Below, piece by piece: positions 4,165 through 40,461 of a stretch of 63,491 bases of DNA. Below the pieces are notes generated by a model, which saw only the letters and a list, made by a program, of their open reading frames with translations, did no database searches and was not told the origin of the DNA. Both the position numbers and the translations under genes were made by a program. The DNA comes from Levilactobacillus parabrevis ATCC 53295 (lineage in GTDB: Bacteria > Bacillota > Bacilli > Lactobacillales > Lactobacillaceae), in contig NZ_AZCZ01000014.1 in NCBI RefSeq assembly GCF_001434055.1, forward strand, positions 1-63,491, written 5' to 3'. How positions within the stretch are numbered: the stretch's first letter is position 1; every line of letters begins with the position of its first letter.

Positions 4165-6498
4165 ATGCTGGAACTCAAACACATCAAGAAATATTACTAC
4201 GTGGGGGACTCTGTCACGAAGGCCCTCGACGATGTTTCCGTTGCTTTCCGCTCCCAAGAGTTCGTTGCGATCCTTGGCCCAAGTGGCTCTGGGAAGACGA
4301 CCATGCTGAACGGTATCGGTGGCCTGGACATTTACGACTCCGGGGACTTGGCTATCGAAGGTAAATCGACCAAGGACTTCTCCGCCGCCGACTGGGACGC
4401 CTACCGGAATAATTCTGTGGGTTTCATCTTCCAGAGCTATAACATCATCGGCCACCTGAGCATCCTCGACAACGTGGAAATGGGGATGACCCTGAGTGGT
4501 GTCTCCAACGCTGAAAAGAAGGAAAAGGCCCTCAAGGCCCTCGACCGCGTCGGCTTGACCGACCATATCAATAAGAAGCCAAACCAATTATCTGGTGGGC
4601 AACTCCAACGGGTCGCTATCGCGCGGGCCATCGCCAACGAACCAGAGATTCTGTTGTGTGACGAACCCACTGGTGCCCTGGATACCGAAACCAGCGAAGA
4701 AATTATGAAGCTGATCAAGGAACTCTCCGCTGAGCGACTGGTGATCATGGTTACCCATAACCCTGACCTGGCCCACGAATACGCCGACCGGATCATCGAG
4801 TTCGCCGATGGGAAGATTCAACACGACTCCGACCCCTACGACGATCACGCCGATGCCGAACAATTCAAGTTAAAGAAGACCAAGATGACCTTCTGGACCG
4901 CATTGAAGCTGTCATTTAACAATATTCGGACCAAGAAGGGGCGAACCGCGCTGACGGCATTTGCCTCCAGTATCGGGATCATCGGAATCGCTATCGTGCT
5001 GGCCCTCTCCAATGGTTTTCAGACCCAGATCAACAAGACCCAGTCCAACACGCTGGCGCAATTCCCCATCACCATTTCGCAAACGGCCCAGGACAGCTCG
5101 ACCACTGGTCCCCAGAACAATAAGAAGACGACCAAGTCCAACAAGGTCGTCGCTAAGATCAGTGACGCCGACAAATCCGTTCACCAAAACAAGATTACCA
5201 AGAGTTACTTAAAATACGTTAAAAACATTAACGGTAACTTAAGTAAGAACATCACCTACACCTACGCGACCGGGATGAACCTCCTGCGGCAAACGGACGG
5301 CAAGACCAAGACGGTCTCCTTCTCCAACGCCGACAGTAGCAATTCGAACAGTCCAAGTGCCATGCAATCTGCCATGTCCGCTTCGACTGGTGTCGGGGGT
5401 TCCGTCTACCCGAGCGCTAACGATGGCGGCACGAACTTCCTGAAGAAGCACTACAAGGTCATCGCCGGGAGTTATCCCAAGAGTGCCAACGATGTGATCT
5501 TACTCGTTGACCGCGACAACTCGACAAACATCAATGCCCTGAAGAATCTAAACTTTGACGTTAAGGACAATCAAAAGTTGAACTACGATAAGATTGTCGG
5601 CACGAAGATCAAAGTTGTCAACAACAATAACTACTACCAAAGCCTGCCTACTGGTAACTACGTTCCAAATAAGGCAACGAATTCCCTTTACAATAACAAA
5701 GACAACACGACCATCAAGATTGCCGGTATTCTGCGGGTCAAGTCAAAATCCTCTGAGAACGTTCTGTCTTCCGGGATTGCCTACAGCGACAAACTGACGC
5801 AAAACATTATCAAAGCCAACAAGAACTCTGATATTGTAAAGGCCCAAAAGAAGGCCGACAGCAACGTTATGACGGGTCAGACCGTTAACAAGGATACCAA
5901 GACTAACTTGGTCAGCTACCTTGGTGGCTCGACCACCCCAGCAAGTATCCTGATCTACCCGAACACCTTTAAGAACAAGGATAAGGTCCTCCATTACCTG
6001 GACAAGTACAACAAGGGTAAGAGCAAATCCGACAAGGTGATCTACACCGATATGGCCGGGACTGTCTCCGACCTGACCGGGGGCTTGATGGATGCCATCA
6101 CTTACGTCCTCGTTGCTTTCGCCGGGATCTCATTGGTTACCAGCATGATCATGATCGCCATCATCACGTACACCTCCGTCCTCGAACGGACCAAGGAAAT
6201 CGGGATTCTCAAGGCCTTAGGGGCCCGGAAGAAAGATATCACCCGGGTATTTGATGCTGAAACGTTCATCCTCGGTGTGGGTTCCGGGGTTCTCGGAGTC
6301 ATCATCGCTTGGCTCCTGACCTTCCCCATCAACATCGTCTTAAAGAGCATTACCGACCTCAGCAACGTCGCGCACCTGAACCCCGTCCACGGAATCGTGC
6401 TGATTATCATCAGTACCGTTCTAACCATGTTGGGTGGCCACATCCCAGCACGGATGGCGGCCAAGAAGGACGCGGCAACGGCATTGCGTTCGGAATAG
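4165..6498 (+). CDS. MacB-like ABC transporter, fused ATPase and FtsX-type permease
   Basis: A 777-residue fusion. Residues 1-235 are an ATPase of the MacB/LolD class with Walker A GPSGSGKT, signature LSGGQ and Walker [13 protein letters not shown] membrane helix follows at about 265-285, then a large lysine-rich external region (about 290-655) and three more helices (about 660-770) in an FtsX fold. Such four-helix mechanotransmission ABC proteins expel or sense antimicrobial peptides or toxins; the substrate here is unknown. The divergent TetR gene suggests inducible control. The start follows GGAAGGA at moderate spacing. Repeat element A begins at the last base of its stop codon. Confidence 0.92.
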
Positions 6499-6718
6499 GT
6501 TAAGAACTATCGCCTGCGGCTGTCAGGATTCCGTCTGCTGTGAGGACCGACTCCAGCCAAGAAGCTGGCTTCCGTCTCGGTTTGAAACCTCGCAAAAGTC
6601 ATGCGAGTTTCCAAACACGCCCTGCGCTGTAAGACCGGGAAAAAACAAACGCCCGGTCTAACAGCGCTGCCACGGCTGACTACATCCTGACCTCCTCCGG
6701 CTAGACTAGCTTTTAACC
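6498..6718. repeat. Structured intergenic repeat, copy A
   Basis: A 221-bp imperfect palindrome that starts on the stop codon of the ABC transporter gene. Its ends (GGTTAAGAACTATCGCC ... GACTAGCTTTTAACC) are inverted relative to each other. TCAGGAT (6523-6529) pairs with ATCCTGA (6684-6690). Inside are a CCAGC/GCTGG hairpin, AAACCTCGCA/TGCGAGTTT (6585-6610) and a 16-bp stem (6624-6639 with 6652-6667, one A:A mismatch). The sequence and architecture match copy B at 30679-30893, and five stem base pairs differ by compensatory changes. It encodes no convincing protein. It may be a non-autonomous mobile element or a structured RNA. Confidence 0.8.
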
Positions 6719-6780
6719 AATGAACATTCGTTACAGCAATGACGACGGGTCCTCACTTTTTTCAAATTTAATCTAACAGA

Positions 6781-6820
6781 AAGGTCCCACAAATCAATTT
6801 CGATTTGCGGGACCTTTTTT
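6781..6820 (+). terminator. Terminator after the ABC transporter / repeat A
   Basis: GGTCCCACAAATC (6783-6795) pairs with GATTTGCGGGACC (6802-6814) and is followed by a T run. AA precedes the hairpin, so weak activity on the minus strand is possible. Confidence 0.9.
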
Positions 6821-6909
6821 CAATTATATCAACTCAAAACTTTTAATTCCGCCCGACTTCATGCCGGTTTCCACCACCGTTGCCCGGTGAGCTACCATGT
6901 AAGCCGTGA

Positions 6910-7073
6910 GGGTGGCAGAAATCGGCCCAGCCGTGGGAATTCTCTAAGTGGCACAGCCACTTAGAGAATTGGTGGCTGTGAAACTCGTTTCTCAGAGGTT
7001 CATGGCCAAGTCTGGAGACCGCACTACGGCTCCAGACGCCCGCCCACAGCGTCACGGCCGATTTCTGCCACCC
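6910..7073. repeat. Nested perfect palindromes downstream of alsD (copy G)
   Basis: The outer arms at 6910-6927 and 7056-7073 are a perfect 18-bp inverted repeat (GGGTGGCAGAAATCGGCC). Within them lie a perfect 15-bp stem (AATTCTCTAAGTGGC, 6938-6952, with 6956-6970) and an 8-bp stem (GTCTGGAG 7010-7017 with 7030-7037). A 9-bp CACAGCCAC/GTGGCTGTG pairing competes with the 15-bp stem. Weaker symmetry continues outside the arms. The layout (outer stem plus inner hairpins, about 200 bp, right after a stop codon) resembles copies A and B, although the primary sequence differs. Confidence 0.7.
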
Positions 7074-7098
7074 GGTAAGGCGTGCTGGTAAGACCCAG

Positions 7099-7809
7099 TT
7101 AGCCTTCTGCTTCGTGGATGGCGCCTTGGATGTCATCTTTGGCGAAATCGTGTTCGCAGTATGCTTGGTCATCTACCGGCAGATGCTGTTCCAATGTTGA
7201 GAACGTTTGCACCTGGACATCCCCCGTCACCGTGCCGAAGTCCAGCAGGTGCCCGCCAAAGTCGTGGGCCGCTGACAGAAAGTGGTCATGGTAACCACCT
7301 ACTGCAACGCCGTCAAACACTTGTGGTGAGTAGTAACCAAGCAGAGTCCCCTCCACCTTGTCGCGGGTGAAGATGCTCTGTTGCTTAGCCGTTTCTGCTA
7401 GTGACTTGAATGGCCGTTCGGATTTCGCCACGGCCCGGGTCTTCACGTCTGTAAAGGTCCCGGTGACCAGGATGGAGAAGAAGGTGTTGGCGTTGTGCGT
7501 CAAGCCCAGCACCTGATCGTGTAGCTCTTCCTTGGTGGCATTCTCCACCGTCATCAGTGGCTGATAAGCGGCGAAGTGGCTGTTGGCAAATGGCAACGTG
7601 AAACTCTCCGGCACCACGTTGACCTCGCCACGACTGTTGACCTGGTAAGGCTTGCCGTCGAGAATAATCAGCTCGCCGTCTAAGCCTTCCCCGGTACCGA
7701 TCCCGGTGTCACCGTGAGCCAGTAATTCCTTCATCGTCAGCGTTCCCGTCAATAAGCCCGGAACCAATAAAGCCAAGGTCCCGTGTTGATAGAGTGTTGC
7801 TTCGTTCAT
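7099..7809 (-). CDS. alsD: Alpha-acetolactate decarboxylase
   Basis: A 236-residue cytoplasmic enzyme that decarboxylates alpha-acetolactate to acetoin, which limits acidification and draws off pyruvate. The zinc ligands are visible in GGYHDHFLSAAHDFGGH, and the family motif GTGEGLDGELIILDG near the N-terminus is intact. Length is normal for the family. It lies 13 bases after alsS, with AGGGAG before the ATG, so the two form an operon. The 3' flank carries the large palindromic element at 6910-7073. Confidence 0.96.
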   Translation of the reverse strand: MNEATLYQHGTLALLVPGLLTGTLTMKELLAHGDTGIGTGEGLDGELIILDGKPYQVNSRGEVNVVPESFTLPFANSHFAAYQPLMTVENATKEELHDQVLGLTHNANTFFSILVTGTFTDVKTRAVAKSERPFKSLAETAKQQSIFTRDKVEGTLLGYYSPQVFDGVAVGGYHDHFLSAAHDFGGHLLDFGTVTGDVQVQTFSTLEQHLPVDDQAYCEHDFAKDDIQGAIHEAEG

Positions 7810-13860: not shown

Positions 13861-14005
13861 TTTTCGTCTGCATCGGGCAGGGATTCTGCCGCTGCAAAGA
13901 TCGCCTCTGGTCAAAGTGCGGGCTTCCGGTTCGGATTGGAACCCGGCCAAGTTCATGCGAGTTTCCTGTAAGGTTGGAAAATCCCTGATAGCGGCAGTCC
14001 GCAAC
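13861..14005. repeat. Diverged copy of the structured repeat (copy C)
   Basis: The start CGTCTGCATCGGGCAGGGATTC resembles the 5' end of copies A, B and D. CAGGGATT pairs with AATCCCTG (about 13977-13987), and CCGGTTC...GGAACCCGG forms an inner hairpin. ATGCGAGTTTCC matches the second hairpin of copy A. It fills most of the 350-bp divergent gap between the DUF1934 gene and lipL, where no other feature is seen. Confidence 0.55.
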
Positions 14006-14108
14006 TTTCCCCTCCCTTACCATCAAGCAGAATTGGTCCAGACCATGACGTGGCCCAAGTTTTCTAGTATAATGAGAGCATTGAAACGATTTCACGAAAG
14101 CAGGTGGC

Positions 14109-30678: not shown

Positions 30679-30893
30679 GGTAACGATTACCGCCTGCGGC
30701 TGCCAGGATTCCGCCTGCTGTGGGGACCGGTCCAAGCCAAAGTTCGGTCTTGAACCTCGACTTGAAACCTCGCACAAACCCGCGAGTTTCCAAGCTCGTC
30801 CCATGGCGTAAGAACGGGCAAGATCCCCCGTCCTAACGCCATCGTCACGGCCGGCTCCATCCTGGCCTCCTCCGGCTAAACGAGTTGTTAACC
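30679..30893. repeat. Structured intergenic repeat, copy B
   Basis: A 215-bp imperfect palindrome homologous to copy A, between the tatD start and the DnaA-box cluster. The ends are GGTAACGATTACCGCC and GAGTTGTTAACC. CCAGGAT (30703-30709) pairs with ATCCTGG (30859-30865), AAACCTCGC pairs with GCGAGTTT, and 30803-30818 pairs with 30827-30842. In the last stem five base pairs differ from copy A yet remain paired (for example G-C to A-T and C-G to G-C). The same A:A mismatch sits at stem position 8 in both copies. Confidence 0.8.
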
Positions 30894-31029
30894 CGCTATC
30901 ATGACTGACCTGACTCCCAACTAAGAGTCTCAAAATCAGCCTATAGTAGCCTCGCTGACAACGTAGAAACAACCATCACCAGATAGTAAAGATACCACCA
31001 TTGCGGACTAAACGCGATATCGCTATCCA

Positions 31030-31300
31030 AAATAGTTATTCACAAGTGGATAACTATTTGAAGTTAGCGGTTATCAACAGCAAAATCAGCACTTATTCAC
31101 TCATTTCACTGCCTACCGCCATTATCGCAGACCTTATGAACAATTTCATCCACAATTCGCTGAATTATCAACCGACTTGTACACCTATCTGTTTATAGGT
31201 GGCGGAAGTTGTCCACATTTTACCGGCATTCATAATTCTGCCAATATCTTTTACACCGGTGGATAAGTTCGTAAGTGGATAACTCTTCCCTCTATCCACA
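31030..31300. promoter_or_regulatory. DnaA-box cluster between metG and tatD
   Basis: Nine sites match TTATnCACA with at most one mismatch. They are TTATTCACA 31036 (perfect), TTATCCACT 31045 (minus), TTATCAACA 31071, TTATTCACT 31093, TCATCCACA 31146, TTGTCCACA 31209, TTATCCACC 31258 (minus), TTATCCACT 31274 (minus) and CTATCCACA 31292. The first two sit inside a perfect 10-bp inverted repeat (AAATAGTTAT 31030-31039 with ATAACTATTT 31050-31059). No dnaA or dnaN is near, so this is better read as a DnaA-binding regulatory or titration locus than as oriC. Confidence 0.75.
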
Positions 31301-31341
31301 CACAGCTATCATCAGGAACTTATCAGCCAATTGAGACTCGC

Positions 31342-31400
31342 AGTTAAAAGCTAGCTTAGCCGGCGGAATCTCTGGTTGCGCAGGCGACGACCTTTTAACC
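31342..31400 (-). repeat. Short derivative of the structured repeat (copy F1)
   Basis: GTTAAAAGCTAGCTTAGCCGG at the left matches the inverted 3' end of copy A, and on the minus strand the right end reads GGTTAAAAGGTCGTCGCCTGCG, like the 5' end. The two ends face each other with little between them, so most of the interior is missing. Confidence 0.55.
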
Positions 31401-31420
31401 ACCTTGCCGAAACGTGTTCC

Positions 31421-35780: not shown

Positions 35781-35803
35781 CTTCGCCTGCGGCTGCTAGG
35801 GTT
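35781..35803. repeat. 5'-end remnant of the structured repeat (copy E)
   Basis: CTTCGCCTGCGGCTGCTAGG matches the 5' end of copies A, B and D. Nothing else of the element is present. It lies between the HExxH gene stop and the sirtuin gene start. Confidence 0.5.
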
Positions 35804-35826
35804 ACAAACAAACATCTACGCTCAGT

Positions 35827-40262: not shown

Positions 40263-40380
40263 ATATCACGACTTTCATGTACTTATTTTAGAGGTTTTCA
40301 CTGGGAAAGTAAACCGTCTTGTCAATACAAAGATTTTTATCATAACTGCTGGTTTGTTTGCTACACATTAAAGGAAAAAT

Positions 40381-40450
40381 GTCGTCTGCGGCTGCTAGGG
40401 ATTCCACCTGCCATGAGGACTGCCGGGAATCCAGAAATCCCAGCATCCCC
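40381..40450. repeat. Truncated copy of the structured repeat (copy D)
   Basis: GTCGTCTGCGGCTGCTAGGG at the start matches copies A, B, E and H. TGCTAGGGATT pairs with AATCCCAGCA (about 40434-40444), so the outer stem is kept while the interior is lost. It lies in the 485-bp divergent gap between trpS and the helicase gene. Confidence 0.6.
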
Positions 40451-40461
40451 AATCGCTTTGA

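Follow-up and report, generated by a model that had tools for sequence, protein, structure and literature searches.

A folding element begins where an open reading frame ends

The window, i.e. the whole 63,491-nt stretch of Levilactobacillus parabrevis ATCC 53295 DNA analysed here, carries an open reading frame at positions 4165-6498, and the end of its stop codon is at the same time the start of a structured element, copy A. Together with copy B, this element had been described from the letters of the DNA as a dispersed structured element with compensatory stem changes. Both copies had been located correctly, and the element itself proved genuine, as judged from covariance-model scores and from covariation among 62 copies in comparison to shuffled alignments. 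The copies and remnants found along the window are collected in Table 1.

Table 1. Elements, their remnants and associated features along the window.
Feature	Positions	Strand	Remarks
T1 element, copy A	6498..6718	+	outer stem GGTTAA/TTAACC, closing stem, inner stem, three hairpins
Hairpin three (Hc) of copy A, which bears the conserved A:A mismatch	6624..6667	+	
Putative inverted duplicate of the gene-end bases 6467-6487, within the 3' flank of copy A	6736..6753	+	weak alone
T2 element, forming a convergent pair with copy A across a 174-nt spacer	6892..7103	-	
Degenerate T1 element	13862..14026	+	
T1 element, copy B	30679..30893	+	
Collapsed T1 element, convergent partner of copy B	31340..31402	-	hairpin base alone remains (by eye)
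Initial ~22 nt of a T1 element	35784..35805	+	remainder missing in comparison to L. fuyuanensis L178:14961-15165
5' fragment of a T1 element	40373..40453	+	

Copies A and B differ on both arms of the main stem at five positions (1, 2, 4, 5 and 12), and pairing is kept in all five, as the original prediction had it. The covariation of the outer stem (TCAGGAT/ATCCTGA versus CCAGGAT/ATCCTGG) had likewise been read correctly. The account of the main stem needs one amendment: copy A indeed pairs at 15 of 16 positions, the exception being A:A at position 8, but copy B pairs at 14 of 16, as it bears, besides the same A:A, an overlooked A:C at position 11. The latter is a single uncompensated change in the 3' arm. 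The possible inverted copy downstream of copy A has a score that is equalled by about 15% of mismatched flank pairs. In L. fuyuanensis (L178) the site of copy B is occupied by a T2 element, and a full copy is present at the site of the collapsed partner of copy B. The DNA between copy B and this partner (31029-31290) is about 85% conserved in L. fuyuanensis and contains many TTATNCACA-like motifs, which we take to resemble DnaA boxes.

The element belongs to a high-copy family with two types

With copy A as a DNA query, the host genome yielded 44 matches at E<=10, and for 41 the E-value was below 1e-28 (40 candidates scored). The covariance model R1, built from 62 copies, assigns 209 bits to copy A and 196 bits to copy B, both of which belong to its training set; its E-values are rough. 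Searching the host and related genomes with R1 revealed many further copies, and thus the repeat is by no means confined to the two copies noticed at first. In the host genome 139 matches were obtained among 150 scored candidates, and as there were 728 candidates altogether, the true copy number may exceed 139. The scores are bimodal. Ninety-nine matches lie above 110 bits and represent type T1, to which A and B belong; the other 40, at 26-96 bits, include T1 fragments and a second type, T2, which has the layout of T1 and other stem sequences and was aligned separately.

T1 is a branched palindrome of about 200 nt. In alignment A1 its closing stem pairs columns 5-23 with 181-199, and its inner stem pairs columns 27-36 with 167-177 and 37-40 with 116-119; three hairpins complete the structure. 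The outer stem differs among copies, GTTAAAA/TTTTAAC being, by eye, its commonest form, and the A:A mismatch of the third hairpin is kept, also by eye, in both T1 and T2. The 3' end of T1 in A1 is the nearly invariant CCTCCTCCGG, whose opposite strand reads GGAGGAGG and is Shine-Dalgarno-like. A conserved tail hidden in the long 3' side was considered and rejected, as the best 40 of 63 own-copy flank matches contained no tail-to-tail match across loci. Among 91 host copies the best identity does not exceed 91.9%, and no fresh insertion was seen.

The family is centred on Levilactobacillus

The sample comprised one genome per species, with sampled regions picked around copies. R1 matches 32 of the 35 Levilactobacillus genomes when 71 candidates are scored per genome, seven of these 32 having weak T2-like scores only (best E 1e-13 to 1e-15). 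Four element-rich genomes (G002, G030, G011 and G032) match in 71 of 71 scored candidates each, and in L. brevis CD0817 (G003) 137 of 150 scored candidates match. The host and its relatives thus carry around a hundred copies, or more, of a folding sequence of some 200 nt. Throughout the Lactobacillaceae, with 12 candidates scored per genome and stricter filters, R1 matches 40 of 201 genomes and 10 of the 40 sampled genera. T2-like relatives beyond the genus occur in Lactiplantibacillus (L106, L095) and Schleiferilactobacillus (L115, L116). A plain DNA query matched 27 of 58 genomes, all of them Levilactobacillus, and none of 23 genomes from other families of the order. There was no plasmid or phage match at E<=1e-5, and viral contigs did not match the one exact pattern with which they were searched.

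Copies turn their 5' end to genes and their 3' end to each other

With genes called as the longest open reading frames rather than by a trained gene finder, the copies examined lie between the longer frames: of 51 own T1 copies in an initial set, 44 are clear of any frame of at least 90 aa and the other seven overlap frames of 92-146 aa. Their placement is asymmetric. Among the 91 host copies a gene end is found within 100 nt in 45 of 54 cases on the 5' side and in 5 of 40 on the 3' side, and for gene starts the corresponding numbers are 20 of 36 and 2 of 48. In other words, the 5' end of own copies is the gene-proximal one, whichever way the gene points, and the 3' end is mostly far from genes.

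Stretches of four genomes were searched for neighbouring elements less than 700 nt apart, and of these 43 pairs are convergent, 12 tandem and none divergent (25, 8 and 0 in the host genome alone); some of the tandem cases are split copies, and some of the pairs are orthologous between genomes. Convergent neighbours and the gene-proximal 5' end are new features of the repeat, as is a third one, an inverted copy of the 5' flank within the 3' flank.

A minority of 3' flanks carry an inverted copy of the 5' flank

We compared the 3' flank of each T1 copy with the reverse complement of its own 5' flank, starting beyond the consensus outer stem; shuffled or mismatched flanks from within the set supplied the percentiles. 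Against mismatched pairs, 25 of 145 copies, a significant minority, lie above the 99th percentile, and 14 lie above the 99.9th; for T2 the numbers are 5 and 3 of 34. These counts do not represent independent events, because copies of sister species were counted separately. When copies with another element within 240 nt were left out, the signal was strong at 16-46 nt from the core (12/103 versus 2/410), faint at 46-90 nt (3/103 versus 4/409) and absent beyond 90 nt, and a long inverted duplication was therefore rejected. Single alignments of the best copies mostly span about 50-95 nt, some being longer and looser, and the inverted copy corresponds to some 50-75 nt of the element's own 5' flank, which at one site is a gene end together with its stop codon.

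Convergent pairs behave in the same way. In 39 of them, the outer flanks match the adjacent half of the spacer in inverted form above the 99th percentile in 11 and 10 cases, in contrast to 1 and 0 cases for the opposite half.

Two circumstances weaken this picture. As many as 120 of the 145 T1 copies, A and B included, stay below the 99th percentile, which counts against a model of flank copying, although age could account for them. Moreover, in at least two of the top cases (L186:7808 and L188:1548) the inverted flanks turn out, by eye, to be T2 arms; at times a T1 lies nested within a T2, and so some inverted flanks are merely arms of an older element. One nested arrangement, with T1 within T2 arms, is shared by sister species at 98.5% identity (L186:7808 and L199:10272), whereas the divergence of other orthologous copies reaches 29%.

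Filled and empty sites

Comparison of closely related genomes, namely the host with L. fuyuanensis (18 and 21 sites) and G011 with G026 (9 and 11 sites), revealed deletions, type swaps and ambiguous extra copies, and no clean gain. Copies are thus also lost by deletion, and two apparently empty sites, one at 35.8 kb of the window and the other being site A in L077, were discarded as such since the first bases of the element are retained there. At 3 of 18 own sites compared, the type (T1 or T2) differs between sister species. Because species pairs gave no clean gain, we examined single sites throughout the genus. Two of them, S1 and S2, were chosen for strong inverted copies, and they therefore illustrate the phenomenon and add nothing to the statistics.

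At S2, 30 orthologous loci were available from the 35 genomes, and only the host and L. fuyuanensis have elements no farther than 330 nt from the gene end. The order at the filled loci is gene, T1, x' (about 60 nt of inverted gene end with the stop codon), spacer, inverted T2 and next gene, whereas, judged by eye, some 20-150 nt separate the two genes at the 28 empty loci. The x' segments score 19.8 and 23.6 versus shuffled maxima of 14.5 and 16.2, and in none of the 28 empty loci does the inverted-copy test beat the shuffles (mean 8.4 versus 9.2 shuffled). At this one well-resolved site the inverted copy is thus missing from genomes without the element.

Among 30 loci of S1, 12 have T1 or T2 as the first element, just past the stop codon and always in sense orientation, and 15 have no element; a further element in the opposite direction is present at 3 of the 30. 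The inverted copy is here just above the shuffled maximum in the host (16.8 versus 16.5) and in L299 (14.4 versus 13.8), and the remaining 10 filled loci stay below it (e.g. 13.9 versus 17.2 in L287 and 13.3 versus 15.5 in L302).

Pairing is probably maintained as DNA rather than RNA

In the alignment of 62 copies, 94.0% of pair cells are standard in comparison to 83.9% (sd 0.3) after shuffling, and 50 of the 65 pairs have changed on both sides, versus 27.6 in shuffled alignments and 12-21 in slid controls. The covariation seen between two copies therefore holds in a larger alignment. Among 91 T1 copies, 65 pairs comprise 5323 Watson-Crick cells, 160 G.T, 156 A.C and 195 others, and the Watson-Crick share is 91% versus 77% in shuffles.

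It had been proposed that the fold is kept either as a structured RNA or as a DNA cruciform. RNA tolerates G.U on its own strand only. We thus compared the two kinds of exceptions with those in RNase P RNA from 30 Levilactobacillus genomes, taking the strand that folds with the lower energy; this is also the strand on which the match lies. There, variable pairs (1073 cells) contain 18.4% G.T and 0.09% A.C, a ratio of about 200:1. In the element G.T and A.C are about equally frequent, and when the plus strand is read at the 63 pairs which both strands' folds share, A.C (150) even outnumbers G.T (103); the fold of the minus strand alone leans mildly to G.T (4.0% versus 1.9%). For this reason the folding looks to be kept as DNA, not as RNA: pairing has been conserved, yet neither strand is favoured in the way expected of an RNA. 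The DNA half of the proposal thus fits better, and the RNA half less.

One might still suppose a structured RNA or a 3'-UTR element, in which compensatory changes keep the RNA fold and the position behind stop codons reflects a function in the transcript. Such a view could draw on the strong covariation, on the 54 own copies whose 5' side faces a gene end, 19 of which start 5-25 nt past the stop codon in sense orientation, and on S1, with its 12 of 30 sense elements just behind the stop codon and 3 of 30 further reversed ones. However, the exceptions are distributed quite unlike those of RNase P, the 5' end is gene-proximal even where the gene points away, and Rfam holds no match to the element, which bears out the statement that no named RNA family corresponds to it. 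At gathering scores Rfam reported one tRNA only in the window, and for 6400-7200 at E<=1 there were four sub-threshold matches, the best at 0.026. RNA was rejected as the main reading on the test of exceptions with the RNase P control, and we regard it as very unlikely.

A different objection is that no selection acts on the fold at all, the arms of a passive repeat being complementary only through template switching and exchange of hairpins between copies. The claim that the pattern can hardly arise unless the folded form is under selection was indeed too strong, since both processes also give two-sided changes; template switching between arms, proposed for RNA genes, can maintain stems (PMC8794818). 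In 11 orthologue pairs between the host and L. fuyuanensis we found 43 two-sided Watson-Crick changes, more than one-sided changes to G.T (15) or to A.C (25), along with 14 mismatches. Of these 43, 42 lie in five orthologue pairs which are 71-85% identical and apparently were replaced or exchanged, and some copies are closer to the copy at a neighbouring site of L. fuyuanensis than to their own orthologue (L051_8703, 92.8% versus 81.8%; L051_12850, 91.3% versus 73.1%). On the other hand, the six pairs of at least 89% identity contain 1 two-sided change, 8 to G.T and 14 to A.C, and thus direct double changes are not seen fresh, and no preference for G.T appears. Nor is the two-sided excess specific, as RNase P shows it too (2736 two-sided versus 1272 one-sided G.U changes). 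Certain mismatches, such as the A:A of the third hairpin, persist in both types (by eye), while copying of arms alone should erase them, which argues for some selection still; paired sites also change less often between orthologues (161/1419) than unpaired ones (256/1012). A fold maintained with no selection therefore seems doubtful to us. The two-sided excess was, for its part, dropped as a proof of a DNA mechanism, since RNase P has the same excess and nearly all the changes come from exchanged-looking orthologue pairs.

Elements next to paralogous genes look shuffled across neighbouring sites in two species (L051:12850, 15035 and 8703 with L177), as if they had been swapped along with homologous gene ends.

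A convergent pair within a larger unit in L. brevis

In L. brevis (G003, L266-L280), 11 loci share a core of T1, a 61-73-nt spacer and an inverted T2. Both ends of a MITE-like unit of about 610 bp, with terminal repeats like CTAAAGGTTGCAAG, are kept in L266, L267, L276 and L279, one or both ends being partly missing or less clear in the others, and direct repeats of 8 bp are visible by eye in two of the 11 (L276, L279). This composite thus has the terminal inverted repeats and direct target duplication of a MITE, and its ends and direct repeats imply that a pair can be carried by a MITE and moved by an ordinary transposase. Neither T1 alone nor the pairs in G000, G001, G011 and G026 have these characteristics. 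In these four genomes none of 40 pairs has shared ends above the 99th percentile, and none of 40 has a direct repeat of at least 8 nt, versus 15 of 389 controls. Single T1 copies show a weak excess of direct repeats (8/147 versus 17/730), in a set that also holds other genomes. The pair as a transposon with terminal inverted repeats was rejected for the host genome, as the outer flanks are dissimilar (0/40) and direct repeats are absent.

A proposed snap-back model of element addition

The reading that we favour, at a probability of roughly 0.45, is a non-autonomous DNA hairpin whose 5' end is joined to a 3' end of the target and whose own 3' end then primes snap-back copying. The element would be joined to, or copied onto, a 3' end of DNA, X, that a break, a nick or a stalled fork has left free, being delivered there either by a protein acting on the folded strand or by template switching to a resident copy. 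After folding, its own 3' end, paired next to X, would prime synthesis back along X, giving X-E-x', and the new end would subsequently be joined to the other side, Y. Capping of one end would thus yield a single element next to an inverted target copy, and capping of both a convergent pair, X-E-x'-y'-E'-Y. These steps could account for the inverted copies, the convergent pairs and the spacer halves that mirror their own sides. The closeness of the 5' side to genes of either direction is explained only partly by the added x'. Foldback priming at breaks is known to produce inverted duplications in yeast (PMC10622511). Besides the many copies with no significant inverted flank, three observations speak against the model: no enzyme was found, no insertion looks fresh, and an L. 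brevis pair has the marks of movement by an ordinary transposase.

Which enzymes might be involved was assessed in the 35 Levilactobacillus genomes. Y1_Tnp, with RAYT and IS200-type enzymes counted together, is present in 23 of them, with six matches in the host genome, and was not found in 12, including the element-rich G002, G030, G011 and G032. RVT_1 is present in 10 genomes and was not found in 25, the host among them. Because of these gaps neither a Y1 transposase nor a reverse transcriptase looks obligatory now, and both were dropped as obligatory partners; a past role of either is possible. A bolder version of the model, which we consider doubtful, is a hairpin without any transposase of its own kind that caps 3' ends at breaks, is mobilised by repair polymerases and leaves a fossil record of broken intergenic DNA.

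Two more conventional readings have to be weighed against snap-back copying. An ordinary MITE might be moved in trans by a DDE transposase, the inverted flanks being palindromes that predate the insertion. The L. brevis unit, with its CTAAAGGTTGCAAG-like ends and 8-bp repeats, speaks for it, as does the nesting of T1 in T2, but pairs of the four other genomes possess neither shared ends nor direct repeats, and the 28 empty loci of S2 have no inverted copy. We find this reading distinctly unlikely. Alternatively, inverted doublets may travel as folded single strands with the help of a Y1 (HUH) transposase, in the manner of REPINs, the 3' end of a half reaction snapping back. Inverted pairs are indeed described for REPINs (PMC3116915), and the host genome has its six Y1_Tnp matches; the lack of such matches in 12 of 35 genomes, four of which are element-rich with 71 of 71 candidates matching, makes this unlikely as well.

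Relation to known repeats and meaning

REP units are much shorter than the element of about 200 nt. Their doublets, REPINs or BIMEs, are, similarly to the element, high-copy, extragenic, non-autonomous and inverted, and form hairpins of single-stranded DNA (PMC3116915). The inverted doublets of a REPIN/RAYT system are matched here by 43 convergent, 12 tandem and no divergent neighbours. The element differs from REPINs by its several hairpins, by convergent doublets whose unique spacers vary in length and by inverted flank copies, and no obligatory Y1 enzyme was seen among the 35 genomes. ERIC, BOX, RUP and other intergenic MITEs resemble it in being short imperfect palindromes in intergenic DNA, whereas the element lacks direct target repeats in four genomes beyond L. 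brevis and has convergent pairs and inverted flank copies. ERIC has been reported at gene 3' ends (review, PMC10969869).

Integron attC sites directly follow the stop codon of a gene. The element also displays what characterises the attC type, namely a folded hairpin with a variable stem and conserved unpaired bases; unlike attC sites, it is dispersed singly or in pairs. For attC, variable stems with conserved pairing and conserved unpaired features are described in PMC2727003. Parvovirus ITRs and Streptomyces telomeres are self-priming terminal hairpins, and like them the element is a branched palindrome whose paired 3' end could prime synthesis, but it is chromosomal and internal, and has no known replicon or terminal protein. 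A parallel to the proposed copying is provided by foldback inverted duplications, in which the 3' end of a hairpin primes copying of its own flank (PMC10622511); in yeast a resident short inverted repeat gives a large duplication, while here a repeat of about 200 nt would give a copy of about 50-75 nt. In the literature we found no described Lactobacillus repeat of such a kind, many subscription papers lying outside the scope of this search, and in a table of stem-loop families in 40 genomes the sole Lactobacillus is L. johnsonii (PMC2267715).

If flank copying were true, it would be a way for a repeat to spread leaving an inverted, not a direct, target duplication, and would explain the pairing and the mirrored spacers together. 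The element also shows how "compensatory" covariation, which commonly serves to prove that an RNA is functional, can arise in DNA repeats, and comparing G.T with A.C exceptions is a cheap test which separates an RNA from a DNA repeat. Moreover, 139 model matches in one bacterial genome now have a name, and such copies may serve as typing markers in Levilactobacillus.
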